A stretch of DNA of 42,530 bases, from NCBI RefSeq assembly GCF_000337135.1, contig NZ_AOIN01000046.1, positions 24,309-66,838 of the forward strand, given 5' to 3'. Position numbers and translations under genes: made by a program. The notes beneath the pieces are model-generated. The model had not been told where the DNA came from. It did not search any database and saw only the letters and a list, made by a program, of their open reading frames with translations. The stretch comes from Natrialba chahannaoensis JCM 10990 (GTDB lineage Archaea > Halobacteriota > Halobacteria > Halobacteriales > Natrialbaceae). Shown piece after piece: positions 35,751 through 42,312 of the stretch; position 1 is the stretch's first letter, and each line of letters starts with the position of its first letter.

Positions 35751-36071
35751 TTGACTGAGGGTACTCGAGTGGATCTGTGTCGGCCCGAGTCGTATGCTGC
35801 TGATATATTGGTGTAGGGGTCCGTTGTGCTGCGGTATGTTGTTGTATACTGCTGTCGAATGTCGATAGAGACCACGATTATGTCAGTTGAAGTCGGCCCA
35901 CACTCGTATGACCCCAATACGAGCTCGGTTCAATGGCCGTACGGGTGGTCAAACCAAAGGTCATCGCTCATACTTAGACGTTACTATCGACATGTCCCGC
36001 CCAATCCGGCAGCCGCCGGGAAATCGCCGCGAGACGTGTCAGTGTTGTCGCCATGCGAATCCTTGACGAAA

Positions 36072-36080
36072 TCTATTTCA
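36072..36080 (+). promoter_or_regulatory. TATA box for the thiolase operon
   Basis: TCTATTTCA, inside the palindrome GAAATCTATTTC (36068-36079), is centred 28 nt before the ATG at 36104, predicting a leaderless mRNA and fixing the start. Confidence 0.6.
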
Positions 36081-36103
36081 TACCGGGCACTCCGTTCACG
36101 AGT

Positions 36104-37282
36104 ATGCGAGATGCCTACCTCGTCGGTGCGGGACAGTCGGCCTACGGGGCGTTTCCATCCGAGAGCTACCGGTCATTGTTCCGGACAGCGTTCGAAGACG
36201 CAGTAGCAAGTGTTCCGAACGGGCTCGAGACGGGCGACGTTGACGAAGCCTTCATTGGCACGCTCGGCGTCGGTGGCCGTCAGCTCGGTCTCTCGGGCCC
36301 GGCGGTAACCGAACACGTCGGTCTCGACGGTGTTCCCTGTACGCGCGTCGAAAACGCCTGCGCAGCGAGTGGCTTTGCGACACGCCAAGCCGTTCAGGCG
36401 GTCAAGTCCGGCATGGCGGACGTCGCTCTCGCGGGCGGCTTCGAGATCATGACGGACATGAGTTCGGACGCGACGAAGTATTGGCTCGGTGTCTCCGGCG
36501 AAACTGAGTGGGAGCGCCTCTCCGGCACCACCTTCTCGGGCGTCTATGCCCAGATGGCCAGTGCTCACATGGACAAGTACGGCACCACGCGCGAACAGCT
36601 CTCGCGCGTCGCTGTCAAGAACCACGCGAATGGCGCGAAAAATCCGCACGCCCAGCTCGGCTTCGAGTGCTCACTCGAGGAGGCCCAGTCGGCACCGGTC
36701 GTCGCAGATCCGCTCAATCTCTATCATTGCTGCCCGACCTCTGATGGGGCAGCCTGCGCGCTGATCGTCAGCGAGGATGTCGTCGACGAGTATACGGACG
36801 ATCCGATCCGCGTCGCCGGCGTCGGTGCCGGCAGCGACAGTGTTGGACTCTTCCAGCGTGACTCCTACACTGGCGTCCCGGCGAGCCAGCGTGCCGCCGA
36901 GACGGCCTACGAGGTGGCTGGCATCAGCCCCGAGGAGCTCGACTTCGCGGAGGTTCACGACTGCTTTGCGATCGCCGAACTGCTGGCATACGAGGATCTC
37001 GGCTTCTGTGAGAAGGGTGAAGCCGGTCAGTTCATCGAGTCCGGCGCGACCGAACTCGGCGGTGAACTCCCCGTCAACACGTCGGGCGGCCTCAAATCGA
37101 AGGGGCACCCGATCGGGGCAACCGGGGCCGGCCAGGTCGTCGAGGCGTTCAAACAGCTCTCGGGCAAAGCCGGCGAGCGTCAGATCGAGAACCCCACACG
37201 CGGGCTCACGCACAACGTTGGCGGCAGCGGTGGTGCATCTGTGATTCACGTATTCGAGAAGGAAACGGAGGTGAGCGTCTGA
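36104..37282 (+). CDS. Thiolase (acetyl-CoA C-acyltransferase, archaeal/SCP2 type)
   Basis: 392 residues from the ATG at 36104 (MRDAYLVGAGQSAYGAFPSE). The enzyme makes or cleaves a beta-ketoacyl-CoA. The acylated nucleophile is the Cys in RVENACAASGFATRQAV; the second motif is EVHDCFAIAELLAY (HDCF), and the catalytic His is in NTSGGLKSKGHPIGATGAGQ; all are present. The C terminus GLTHNVGGSGGASVIHVFEK is typical of archaeal members. The stop overlaps the start of the following gene by one base, so the two products are made together. In archaea such thiolases can form a complex with DUF35 and HMG-CoA synthase; here DUF35 is fused to the partner. Chain-length specificity is unknown. Confidence 0.94.
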   Translation: MRDAYLVGAGQSAYGAFPSESYRSLFRTAFEDAVASVPNGLETGDVDEAFIGTLGVGGRQLGLSGPAVTEHVGLDGVPCTRVENACAASGFATRQAVQAVKSGMADVALAGGFEIMTDMSSDATKYWLGVSGETEWERLSGTTFSGVYAQMASAHMDKYGTTREQLSRVAVKNHANGAKNPHAQLGFECSLEEAQSAPVVADPLNLYHCCPTSDGAACALIVSEDVVDEYTDDPIRVAGVGAGSDSVGLFQRDSYTGVPASQRAAETAYEVAGISPEELDFAEVHDCFAIAELLAYEDLGFCEKGEAGQFIESGATELGGELPVNTSGGLKSKGHPIGATGAGQVVEAFKQLSGKAGERQIENPTRGLTHNVGGSGGASVIHVFEKETEVSV

Positions 37283-38760
37283 TGGCCGCCATCACCGCCG
37301 TCGGCGCGTACGCACCACGATTCCGGATCACGGCCGAGGAATTCGCAGATGCCTGGGGCCACTTTCAGGCCTCCGGTATCTCGGAAAAGGCCGTCCCCGC
37401 AGCCGACGAGGACGCCCTGACGATGGGTTACGAGGCCGCGACGCGCGCACTCGAGGCAGCGGAACTCACTGGCGACGCTATCGACTGGCTCGCGTTCGCA
37501 TCCTCTCACCCACCGGTCGCAGAGGAGGACCTGACGGCTCGCCTGGGCGCGATGCTCGCCGTCAACGAGTCGGCCACCCGTCACGTATTCACTGGCAGCA
37601 CGCGGGCCGGCACCCGCGCGCTCTGGGCGGGTATGGACGCAGTCGACGCGGATGAGACCACGACGGGGCTCGTCGTCGCCGCCGACGCACCGGTCGGCGA
37701 ACCGGATAGCGAACTCGACCACGCCGCCGGTGCGGGTGCCGCCGCGTTCGCCCTCGAAGCGAGCGGTCCCGCCGACATCGTCGACCGTGCCGAGCACTCC
37801 CTCCCCTACCCCGGCACCCGGTTCAGAAACACCGGCGAGGAGGACACTCAGGGCCTCGGCGTCACCCAGTACGACCGCCAGGCGTTCACCGAAACGATTG
37901 GCGGCGCTGTCGACGCACTCGAGTCCGATTCCAGCGACGACCTCGAGCCAGCGTCCGCCGCTATCCAGGCTCCGAACGGGAAACTCCCCTACCGCGCCGC
38001 CGGCGCGGCCGGCGTGGGAACCGACGAGATCCAGGCCGCTGCAACGGTTCACGACCTCGGCGACCTCGGCGCTGCGAGCGTTCCAGTTTCGCTTGCCAGT
38101 GCGCTTGCAGAGGACCACGAGTCGATTCTGGGCGTCTCGTTCGGTAGTGGAGCCGGTGCCGACGCGCTGGTACTCGAGTGCAGTGGGAGCGTTCCGGCAC
38201 AGGTTGACTTGGAGACAGACACGAACGGCGCAGACGACGAACAGACACTCTCGTACGCCGAGTACCTCCGCCAGCGCGGTGTCGTCACGGCGGGACCACC
38301 CTCGGGCGGCGGTGCGTACGTCAGCGTTCCGTCGTGGCGACGGTCGATTCCACAGCGGTACCGACTCGAGGCGGGCCGCTGTCCGGAGTGTGGTGCACTT
38401 TCGTTCCCACCAGAGGGTGCCTGTGATGAGTGTGGGTCGCTTGCTGAGTATGAAGCAGTCGAACTCGCGGACACAGGCCGTATTGAGGCTGTAACGACGA
38501 TTTCGCAGGGAGGTGCGCCACCAGAGTTCGCGCCACAGCAGTCACAGGCCGGTGACTACGCGGCGGCGATCGTCGAACTTCCGGTTGCAGAGAGTTCGAG
38601 AACGGAGACAGGTGAGGGGACCGTGAGCCTCCCCGCGATGGGGACCGACGCTGCACCCGACGCCTTCGCAGTCGACGATGAAATCGAGACGACGATTCGG
38701 CGGATATACACGCAGGAGGGCGTGACGCGGTACGGATTCAAGGTTCGGCCAGCAGCGTAA
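37282..38760 (+). CDS. HMG-CoA synthase-like protein with altered active site, fused to DUF35 (zinc ribbon + OB fold)
   Basis: 492 residues. Residues 1-320 follow the archaeal HMG-CoA synthase fold: ITAVGAYAPRFRITAEEFAD, SEKAVPAADEDALTMGYEAA, ASSHPPVAEED, PNGKLPYRAAGAAGV and VSFGSGAGADALVLE. Compared with the archaeal enzyme pattern as I know it, the catalytic Glu (GSESHP) is Ser74, the nucleophile Cys (FACKAGT) is Thr107 in STRAGT, and the His (HQPNGK) is Gln229 in QAPNGK. Residues about 325-492 are DUF35: zinc ribbon CPECGALSFPPEGACDECGS (Cys367, 370, 381, 384) and an OB fold (TGRIEAVTTISQGG, YAAAIVEL). It is coupled to the thiolase. Likely a scaffold or CoA-binding partner and not a true synthase; annotation as HMG-CoA synthase would mislead. 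Confidence 0.88.
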   Translation: MAAITAVGAYAPRFRITAEEFADAWGHFQASGISEKAVPAADEDALTMGYEAATRALEAAELTGDAIDWLAFASSHPPVAEEDLTARLGAMLAVNESATRHVFTGSTRAGTRALWAGMDAVDADETTTGLVVAADAPVGEPDSELDHAAGAGAAAFALEASGPADIVDRAEHSLPYPGTRFRNTGEEDTQGLGVTQYDRQAFTETIGGAVDALESDSSDDLEPASAAIQAPNGKLPYRAAGAAGVGTDEIQAAATVHDLGDLGAASVPVSLASALAEDHESILGVSFGSGAGADALVLECSGSVPAQVDLETDTNGADDEQTLSYAEYLRQRGVVTAGPPSGGGAYVSVPSWRRSIPQRYRLEAGRCPECGALSFPPEGACDECGSLAEYEAVELADTGRIEAVTTISQGGAPPEFAPQQSQAGDYAAAIVELPVAESSRTETGEGTVSLPAMGTDAAPDAFAVDDEIETTIRRIYTQEGVTRYGFKVRPAA

Positions 38761-39577: not shown

Positions 39578-39994
39578 TTACCGCCGGACAAGCACGGCAT
39601 ACCCAACACGCCAGCCGACGAGGGCAACCAGCCCGAAGCCAGTGATGACGAGGCCGAACGGCCAGGCAGCACCCCCATCGAGGAACGGCGAGACACGGAG
39701 GGACAGACCGATATTCGCCGCCGCGATCCACGTCAGTGCTGTCAGCCGCGCTGTCCCGGCTACCGACGCTGTCGCGTCGCGGATGTACAGCCCAGACAGT
39801 GCCGCCATCGCGCCCCAGCCCAGCAGGAACGGGGCCAGCGCCTCGAGTAAGGTAGGAACACCGTCGACTAGACCGTGGGAGTACTGACCGTACAGGATCA
39901 ACGCCGTCAGCAAGGCGACGTCGACGGTACCGATCAACAACGTTTCGCGATCGAAGATCGATGTGCGCTCATCCGCCTGCACTGCAGTGTCCAT
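39578..39994 (-). CDS. DUF3054 family membrane protein
   Basis: 138 residues with four predicted membrane helices: TVDVALLTALILYGQYSHGL, EALAPFLLGWGAMAALSGLY, ARLTALTWIAAANIGLSLRV and PFGLVITGFGLVALVGWRVG. The pattern LAPFLLGW, the WIAAANIGLSLR stretch and the final GWRVGYAVLVRR match DUF3054, a family of small membrane proteins in actinobacteria and haloarchaea with no known function. The start is the ATG at 39994. It has no coupled neighbour. Confidence 0.85.
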   Translation of the reverse strand: MDTAVQADERTSIFDRETLLIGTVDVALLTALILYGQYSHGLVDGVPTLLEALAPFLLGWGAMAALSGLYIRDATASVAGTARLTALTWIAAANIGLSLRVSPFLDGGAAWPFGLVITGFGLVALVGWRVGYAVLVRR

Positions 39995-40342
39995 ACACGC
40001 TGCTCGGGGCCGTATCCCTATTGATGTCCCGATTTCAGCCGCTGCGTTGGCTCATCACATCGCCCACTCGCCGGCAGGAATTGACAGGGGAGGAGGAACC
40101 CGGCGACTGGCATCGCCGAGTTGCCGCATGTCGTCCCAACGGACGAAGCGTCTCCGTGCGAGGACGTCCTCGCACGTCCCCTCGAACGAACGGGAGCGGC
40201 TTTGTTATCGGACCCCTTCATCACTCTTCCAGCAGTCGGGAGCACAGCCTGTCCGGTGTACGGCGTGCATACTACTCGAGTAGCCGCCGTATGGAGTCCC
40301 AAACTGGACCGCTGGATGTGGCTATGGATGTGGATGCGAACA
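39995..40342. other. Intergenic region with a 22-bp perfect palindrome
   Basis: About 350 bases between the TIR gene end and the DUF3054 gene start (both on the minus strand). It includes a 22-bp perfect palindrome (40155-40176) and the 12-base palindrome CTACTCGAGTAG (40272-40283). Frames run through on both strands but lack haloarchaeal codon bias. Confidence 0.55.
40155..40176. promoter_or_regulatory. 22-bp perfect palindrome
   Basis: The half-site CGTGCGAGGAC is followed directly by its exact reverse complement. It may be a dimeric protein binding site or a hairpin in the transcript downstream of the TIR gene. Confidence 0.4.
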
Positions 40343-40969
40343 TCATTGCGCGTTCGTCTCAGCACTGCCGTCCTCTCGACGGAGATACCCGATCGTCCCC
40401 GGATCGAAATAGTAGCGCGAGCCACAGTTTCTACAGTCGGTCGACAGCGCCTGGCCGTGCTGGTGGAGCTTCCAGAGCTTCGTCTGGTTGCGTTCGATCT
40501 CGAGTGTCACCGGTTGGTCACAGTTCGGCACGGTACACGGGAACCGGACGTACCAGTTCGGCACCGAAAGCGCACCGAGCGGGGCGAGTTCGCTCCGCAG
40601 TCGGCACAGCAGGTTGAAGATCGTCACCGAGGGATTCTCGCGGTCGATGACGACGCCCTCGACGTCGCTGATGAAACCGCCACGGCGGCGCTCGTCGTCG
40701 TACAGCGGCAACACGGGGATGCCCTTCGCCAGCGCGTAACCGATCTCCTGATTGATCCACTGGCTGGTCATCGCTCGTTCAGTGAGCACCGCAACGACGA
40801 CATCGCTGTTCGCCAGCCGGCCCTCGAGACGCGCGCGTGACCCACCCGATTCGACCTCCTCAAGCACGATGTGGACGCCGAACGGGAAGTTCTTCACCGT
40901 CGAGAACAGGTCCTGGACGAGCTCAAGATCACCTGGTGCATGCGAGACGAAGACCTGTTCTCCGGACAT
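40343..40969 (-). CDS. TIR-domain protein with C-terminal zinc ribbon
   Basis: 208 residues. Residues 1-128 form a TIR domain: QVFVSHAPGDLELVQDLFST (box 1), VHIVLEEVESGG, LANSDVVVAVLTERAMTSQW and INQEIGYALAKGIPVLPLYD. Glu75, in SQWINQEIG, is at the position of the catalytic Glu of NAD-cleaving TIR enzymes, so NADase or cyclase activity is possible. Residues 145-182 hold a zinc ribbon (CTVPNC and CRNCG; Cys145, 150, 179, 182). TIR proteins often work in phage defence with a partner that senses infection; no such partner is adjacent, so it may be self-contained, with the zinc ribbon as sensor or binding module. A TATA element at 41001-41009 supports the start. Confidence 0.88.
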   Translation of the reverse strand: MSGEQVFVSHAPGDLELVQDLFSTVKNFPFGVHIVLEEVESGGSRARLEGRLANSDVVVAVLTERAMTSQWINQEIGYALAKGIPVLPLYDDERRRGGFISDVEGVVIDRENPSVTIFNLLCRLRSELAPLGALSVPNWYVRFPCTVPNCDQPVTLEIERNQTKLWKLHQHGQALSTDCRNCGSRYYFDPGTIGYLRREDGSAETNAQ

Positions 40970-41051: not shown

Positions 41052-41513
41052 CTACTCCTGCGAAATCGTCTCCAGGACCCGCTGTGAGAACGCCACCTGC
41101 GAGAGTTCGTTCGAGAGGTTCTCGAACCACGCAGCCTCGACGTGCCAGCTCCCTCGCCGGTCTCCATCCGTCGTCAGTGACGTAACCTCGAGTCGCCCCG
41201 GCTGCCACTCCCGTTCCTCGGCAACCGCCAGCAGCGTCCGAAGCACCGCACCGACCTCGTTACTCGTCACCCCCGGTGCCTCCGAGACGGTTTCGTACTC
41301 GAGTACGATCGGAGCCGATTGCTCGTCACCGCTGGTAGCGTCCTTCTCAGTGTGTGTTTCGGTGGTACTCGCAGTCTGATCCGTCGCCTCGCTTTCGCTC
41401 TCGCTCTCGTTCTCGCTCTTGTCCCCATCCCCCTGTTCGAACGCCGTCACGTAGATGCCGTGGCTCATGAGCCGGTTCTCGAGTGCGACAGCCACGGGCC
41501 GCTCGTCACTCAT
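41052..41513 (-). CDS. Conserved haloarchaeal protein of unknown function
   Basis: 153 residues from the ATG at 41513 (MSDERPVAVALENRLMSHGI); a longer frame to 41633 is not supported. The ordered parts are LENRLMSHGIYVTAFEQG at the start and APIVLEYETVSEAPGVTSNE, VGAVLRTLLAVAEEREWQPG, SWHVEAAWFENLSNEL further on. Between them lies a 40-residue disordered Ser/Glu/Thr insert encoded by a TCGCTC-type microsatellite at about 41388-41420. The fold looks like a small alpha/beta unit; I cannot name the family. It lies 82 nt upstream of the TIR gene on the same strand, so co-transcription is possible, but the TIR gene has its own TATA. Confidence 0.75.
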   Translation of the reverse strand: MSDERPVAVALENRLMSHGIYVTAFEQGDGDKSENESESESEATDQTASTTETHTEKDATSGDEQSAPIVLEYETVSEAPGVTSNEVGAVLRTLLAVAEEREWQPGRLEVTSLTTDGDRRGSWHVEAAWFENLSNELSQVAFSQRVLETISQE

Positions 41514-41667: not shown

Positions 41668-42312
41668 TCAGAGCGGGTCGACCAGATCCTCAAGTGCAGC
41701 CGTCGGATCGTCTGCCTTCGCGACGCCGCTTGCGAGCAGGACGCCCTCGGAGCCGAGGTCGCCGGCAGCGACCACGTCGTCGCCGGTGCTGATACCTGCA
41801 CCGCAGAGCACTGACACACTGTCGTCGACGCTCTCGGCTGCGTCTACGGCGTCCTCGACGACATCAGGATCAGCCTGACTGACCGGCGTTCCCGTCCCGA
41901 TAAGCTCCGGCGGTTCGACGGCAACGGCGTCCGGCCCGAGCGCCGCGACGGCACCGATCTGGGCCGGGTTGTTCGCACAGACAACCGTTTCGAGGCCGGC
42001 GCGCTCCGCCGCCTGCACCGAGCCATCGATATCGGCGAGCTTCAGGCGCTGCTCGGAGTGATTGATCAGGGTACCCGCTGCACCTGCGTCGGCGACCGAC
42101 TCGGCGAGCGTGTGGCCGGTGTTGCTCCCGTGCTCGATCGGATCGACATGCTGCGCCCACGTTTCTGCGCCCGTTTCGGCGACGCGTTCGAGGTGTGCCG
42201 CCTGGGGTGCGACGGCGAGGCGCGCGTCGGTATTCTCGTTGACATCGCGGACGGCCTCCGCAACGGCAACTGGATCACACGGATATGTCTTTAGGTTGAC
42301 AAGGACAAACAT
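41668..42312 (-). CDS. tpiA: Triosephosphate isomerase
   Basis: 214 residues, the short archaeal form (bacterial enzymes have about 250). It interconverts dihydroxyacetone phosphate and glyceraldehyde 3-phosphate in glycolysis and gluconeogenesis. Active-site residues are Asn6 and Lys8 (VNLKTY), the electrophile His85 (INHSEQR) and the base Glu133 in [15 protein letters not shown], which includes the flexible loop. [13 protein letters not shown] and [14 protein letters not shown] hold the phosphate. The start is supported by a TATA-like element (minus strand GCTATTTCTT, 42341-42350) about 7 nt-leader distance upstream. Confidence 0.97.

Follow-up and report, generated by a model that had tools for sequence, protein, structure and literature searches.

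A vertically inherited, chromosomal TIR protein with a four-cysteine domain in Natrialbaceae, and a J-domain neighbor in its relatives

INTRODUCTION

To our knowledge, TIR proteins of prokaryotes are nearly always discussed as scattered defense effectors. A 42,530-nucleotide stretch of the Natrialba chahannaoensis JCM 10990 genome (here, the window) carries, at 40343..40969 on the minus strand, a gene for a 208-aa protein in which a TIR domain is followed by a cysteine-bearing tail. A preliminary description, made from the sequence alone, saw in it a possible one-gene defense or signaling device with no partner gene adjacent. The question raised by this locus is whether such a protein is a defense effector or has a standing role in the cell.

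RESULTS

TIR fold and NAD-site residues

The reading frame was found where described, and the claim of a TIR domain with a glutamate at the NADase position was confirmed. The domain spans about residues 4 to 132 (40574..40960, minus strand). Pfam TIR_2 matched residues 6 to 93 with 41.7 bits against a cutoff of 28 (E = 2e-10), and ThsB_TIR likewise scored over its cutoff (E = 1.6e-6). An AF2 model built from 38 relatives (pLDDT 77) predicts a fold that matched solved TIR domains in VIA, with a Z score of 12.2 and an rmsd of 2.6 over 118 aligned residues for 8fz9_B, a TIR of B. cereus. In a PDB profile search, the region of Glu75 (codon at 40745..40747, minus strand) aligned with the W-x3-E motif of AbTir-type bacterial chains, Glu75 falling on the glutamate of that motif.

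Conservation was assessed in an alignment of 70 distinct full-length homologs, from which two broken copies (the frameshifted L039/L089 and the fragment L090) had been removed beforehand. Trp71 (codon at 40757..40759, minus strand), Glu75, and the tail cysteines Cys145, Cys150, Cys179, and Cys182 were all invariant (70/70), as were His10, Arg45, and Arg125. Since six such positions are invariant in all 70 rows, the combined TIR and four-cysteine pattern is not due to chance. The order of the two domains was fixed across homologs, of which the closest from named relatives are those of Natrialba sp. SSL1 and N. hulunbeirensis (97% and 96% protein identity), and the most distant reach down to 46 to 50% identity. 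According to excerpts of a TIR survey (PMC7075850), W71 and E75, in the survey's own numbering, bind ligand in SARM1, the equivalent of Trp71 being a ligand contact there; E75 is described as critical for NADase activity, yet common among TIRs without reported activity. We conclude that the product of 40343..40969 is a TIR-fold protein with W71 and E75 at NAD-site positions, and it probably cleaves NAD.

Seven bacterial loci, mostly from Bacteroidota (L040 to L046), encode TIR proteins whose QWINQEIG motif is identical to that of the present protein and that also have a conserved LKGFIHKQIDLPY stretch. No CxxC motif was present in these bacterial reading frames, and the four-cysteine domain was absent from them.

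The C-terminal four-cysteine domain

The tail (residues 133 to 199; 40373..40573, minus strand) carries Cys145-x4-Cys150 and Cys179-x2-Cys182, exactly the spacing given in the preliminary description. Modeled alone, the domain is predicted to be compact (pLDDT 89), running strand, cysteine pair, strand, helix, strand, cysteine pair, and two strands; in this model, both pairs sit between strands, as the knuckle turns of a zinc ribbon would. A Pfam search with the 70-residue domain returned no zinc-ribbon family over its cutoff. Searches of solved structures with the model gave nothing below an E value of 0.49 in Foldseek and a best Z score of 3.3, to beta-propellers, in VIA, hence no convincing solved fold, although in both searches such absence says little. 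The earlier label "zinc ribbon" describes the cysteine pattern fairly but goes beyond what family and fold searches returned. We consider it very probable that the domain binds zinc. By our own reading, the cysteine pairs, strands, and helix follow one another as they do in Zim17. Homology to Zim17/Hep1, the DNL zinc ribbon that partners Hsp70, was considered and rejected, with hhalign values of 4.2 and 4.7% and a VIA Z score of 2.5 for Tim15.

The domain appears specific to this protein. A profile run against 243 genomes of the order gave 45 clear matches, all of them this TIR protein, and 3 marginal ones (E = 0.002 to 0.008); all 12 matches in 294 genomes of the phylum were again this protein. 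Averaged over 70 rows, 28 of them net positive, its net charge is −0.1 per 100 residues, compared with −11.5 per 100 residues for 384 equal-length stretches from 24 candidate genes of the window, only 3.9% of which reach the net charge of the window protein's own domain. A near-neutral domain within an acidic proteome hints at a binding surface, and only hints.

A single-copy gene in a housekeeping neighborhood

Single copies of the TIR gene were found in 105 of 125 genomes of the family, covering 27 of 29 genera; this count includes G071, whose single copy is broken into two pieces, and G054, which has only a fragment. Across the order, 90 of 392 genomes carry it, all within three families. 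The gene is missing from 20 of the 125 family genomes and is therefore dispensable.

The preliminary description had proposed collecting homologs with the same two-domain order and tabulating their neighbors, and had named housekeeping surroundings as speaking against its proposal. The domain order and Glu75 proved constant, and the neighbors are housekeeping genes. The conserved neighborhood comprises tpiA, a TIGR00270/MBF1-like regulator, a CDP-alcohol phosphatidyltransferase, and DUF3054. It is anchored by tpiA (triose-phosphate isomerase; 41668..42312, minus strand), which lies within the compared segment in 55 of 60 TIR-bearing loci, a set that includes the window and counts some genomes twice, and on the downstream side by a DUF3054 membrane protein gene (39578..39994, minus strand). 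The usual order, seen also in an annotated Natrinema record, is tpiA, a small acidic gene, the TIR gene, and DUF3054. The small gene (41052..41513, minus strand; 153 aa) is present in most loci with a conserved position; its product matched no Pfam family. Beyond DUF3054, a thiolase gene and an HMG-CoA/ACP-synthase-like gene with a ChsH2 zinc ribbon (36053 to 38760 of the window, plus strand) are kept in many relatives.

Sixteen loci of genomes without the TIR gene were examined: tpiA was kept in all 16 and DUF3054 in 15, and between the two no trace of the TIR gene was seen. In these genomes, the gene has been cleanly lost. Broken TIR genes at the usual locus, one with a frameshift (L089:6058-6402) and one a fragment (L090:6352-6603), look like recent losses under way. 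In a 68-locus tree built from tpiA and two neighbors, parsimony counts 7 switches in the presence of the TIR gene; the gene is present on the deepest branches. The dN/dS values of the TIR gene (0.02 to 0.17 in 18 close pairs) match those of tpiA (0.02 to 0.19 in 16 pairs), and both are exceeded by those of the fast-evolving small acidic gene (0.15 to 0.48 in 15 pairs). The TIR gene is therefore under purifying selection, with a constraint like that of tpiA.

A plasmid search returned two records only: a 987-kb Natrinema replicon and a Megaira TIR that matched over residues 5 to 123 only. Although labeled a plasmid, the Natrinema replicon (CP031304.1, L152) has the entire core neighborhood, along with tpiA and adenylate kinase, and may be a piece of chromosome. 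Neither a phage collection nor a set of viral contigs contained a match to the TIR gene. Overall, we conclude that the gene is chromosomal and has been passed down vertically within Natrialbaceae and a small number of related haloarchaea.

A convergent J-domain gene in relatives

Between DUF3054 and the TIR gene, the window has an empty gap (39995..40342) at the position where most relatives carry a further gene. This gene lies tail to tail with the TIR gene in 43 of the 60 TIR-bearing loci and encodes a protein with at least three CxxC...CxxC units followed by a C-terminal J domain (PF00226, E = 1e-8), and the HPD motif is present in each of the 43 copies found. Lineages differ in how many CxxC...CxxC units the protein has (L152:6612-7292, minus strand, and its equivalents; more in L083 and L085 to L087). 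The J gene still adjoins the TIR gene where the DUF3054 side has been lost (L083 to L087). The statement that no partner gene is adjacent is thus true of the window and its genus and fails for most relatives. The gene is absent from all 7 genomes of the genus and from 10 other TIR-bearing genomes of the family; a search of the source genome gave no J-protein match, and no relict of the gene was seen in the gap.

Counted over the 125 family genomes, 88 have both genes, 17 the TIR gene only, 3 the J gene only, and 17 neither. Over 243 genomes of the order, with bare J-domain matches excluded, 45 have the TIR gene, 37 the J gene, 35 both, and 196 neither; outside the family, the same 7 genomes carry the two genes. 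Adjacency is not universal: J genes of the same architecture lie far from the TIR gene in two genomes outside the family (G148 and G159; L153 and L154), and in several genomes of one genus (G024 to G028) the distance is about 150 kb. Fisher's test gave 4e-9 for the family and 8e-31 for the order, values that ignore shared ancestry and are not to be read as probabilities. The co-occurrence is confounded by common descent and by adjacency, since a single deletion can take both. The distribution of the J gene follows that of the TIR gene. Because 17 of 105 TIR-bearing genomes have no J gene, there is no strict requirement for the J protein. A functional link between the two proteins seems plausible to us at slightly less than even odds, and in the relatives the J protein is the likely partner.

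DISCUSSION

Preferred reading and its alternatives

The reading that we prefer, at a probability of about 0.35, is that of a vertically inherited, chromosomal TIR enzyme that processes NAD in stress or quality-control signaling, ancestrally together with the J protein; the enzymatic activity and the partnership are what we infer. The enzyme would process NAD+, and its own zinc-binding C-terminal domain would anchor or target it. In the ancestral state, the convergently encoded multi-zinc-ribbon J-domain protein would be its partner, recruiting Hsp70 (DnaK) to the TIR protein or to a triggering client, and this recruitment would gate assembly and activity of the TIR protein. Natrialba would have lost the partner; lacking that J protein, it would have to rely either on a four-cysteine domain that regulates sufficiently alone or on another J protein. 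Stress or quality control as the role of the TIR protein is itself a tentative assignment. More speculative again is a two-gene module in which a multi-zinc-ribbon J-domain co-chaperone, dedicated to this task, would gate a core TIR-zinc NADase; the zinc units and Hsp70 would sense protein-folding or zinc/redox stress and thereby switch the enzyme.

The defense reading survives in a core form, in which the zinc domain senses a nucleic acid or viral protein and unleashes NAD depletion. Many prokaryotic TIRs are defense effectors, and the TIR fold with its invariant E75, the near-neutral four-cysteine domain, and the best matches of the protein in a defense library, which are ThsB models (E = 4.6e-6), fit such a role. 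The match to the NCBIfam Thoeris type III ThcB4 model did not reach equivalog level (35.5 bits; cutoff, 220), and padloc models matched neither the six window neighbors nor the J protein, hence no ThsA-type effector among those. Mobile defense genes would be expected to be patchy and to have variable neighborhoods, as opposed to presence in 105 of 125 genomes with tpiA at 55 of 60 loci; a patchy distribution is indeed the impression given by other TIR_2 proteins of haloarchaea, with 22 matches in 19 of 243 genomes. The low dN/dS bears no sign of an arms race, neither the phage collection nor the viral contigs searched gave a match, and most relatives have a candidate partner gene. The one-gene defense device of the preliminary description is accordingly disfavored. 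Slow evolution and core status are compatible with an immune function, and we regard a core antiviral role as possible but unlikely.

Similarly unlikely is a noncatalytic scaffold, whose TIR domain would only self-assemble while the zinc domain docks a partner. According to excerpts of PMC7075850, more than 70% of TIR domains overall have a conserved E75, and its frequency does not track activity; its presence agrees with a scaffold as well. Against this, both W71 and E75 are invariant down to the most distant homologs, and NAD-hydrolyzing bacterial TIRs such as AbTir have N-terminal and W-x3-E motifs that align with those found here.

We give less credence to housekeeping decapping of NAD-RNA, with the TIR domain stripping nicotinamide from NAD-capped RNA and the zinc domain gripping the RNA. 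The available text of PMC10937652 reports that the archaeal TIR protein TcpA (in vitro) and several bacterial TIRs remove nicotinamide from NAD-RNA, and that of PMC10663502 reports NAD-RNAs in Haloferax volcanii and Nudix proteins, tested in Sulfolobus, that do not decap NAD-RNA; a core gene with a near-neutral four-cysteine domain would suit this activity. However, the great majority of other haloarchaea lack the TIR gene (the 196 of 243 order genomes above have neither gene), though NAD-RNA occurs there too, and active deNAMing TIRs, as described in the same text of PMC10937652, tended to be positive near the site, whereas the TIR domain here is acidic (−5.9 per 100 aa). Least likely, and very improbable, is that the protein is not a TIR but a nucleotide N-hydrolase akin to nucleoside 2-deoxyribosyltransferases: an NDT-like chain tops the single-sequence PDB matches, but the Nuc_deoxyrib_tr match (residues 51 to 99) is confined to the second half and, at 25 bits, lies under its cutoff of 28.8, while TIR_2 and ThsB_TIR lie over theirs and the fold search puts TIRs first.

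Significance of a core TIR gene

On the preferred reading of an NAD-processing signaling enzyme, the protein would be informative about the relation between immune TIR enzymes and ordinary NAD signaling. That a TIR gene is fixed, single-copy, and constrained like a glycolytic enzyme throughout an archaeal family suggests a standing role in the cell, and the co-distributed J-domain protein offers a concrete, testable partner. Should the two-gene module be real, NAD metabolism in archaea would be coupled to the quality control of proteins. Neither TIR domains nor J domains are new in kind; their combination, as a TIR-Cys4 protein with a J protein, does appear to be new, in that a literature search, mainly of titles and abstract openings, found no published account of a core TIR-Cys4 protein whose neighbor is a multi-zinc-ribbon J protein.

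Comparison with known systems

AbTir, BtTir, BtpA/TcpB, and the TIR domain of SARM1 share with the present protein the TIR fold, an F-(I/V)-S-H start, and the W-x3-E motif. In contrast to the bacterial NAD hydrolases and SARM1, the protein described here, known from its sequence, pairs an N-terminal TIR with a lineage-specific Cys4 domain and is encoded by a fixed core gene. Thoeris ThsB, a TIR synthase of a cADPR isomer, resembles the present protein in that the ThsB_TIR model scores over its cutoff and ThsB chains are among the fold matches; unlike ThsB, this protein has no ThsA-type effector among the six neighbors tested and is core rather than patchy. TcpA of Theionarchaea is likewise an archaeal TIR protein, with NADase and NAD-RNA activity; compared by description rather than by sequence, it differs in that the available text of PMC10937652 mentions no zinc domain for it. 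The J protein, finally, shares its C-terminal J domain and HPD motif with DnaJ and other J-domain co-chaperones, whereas its at least three N-terminal CxxC...CxxC units set it apart from DnaJ and, among the genomes searched, occur in this arrangement only in TIR-bearing haloarchaeal families.
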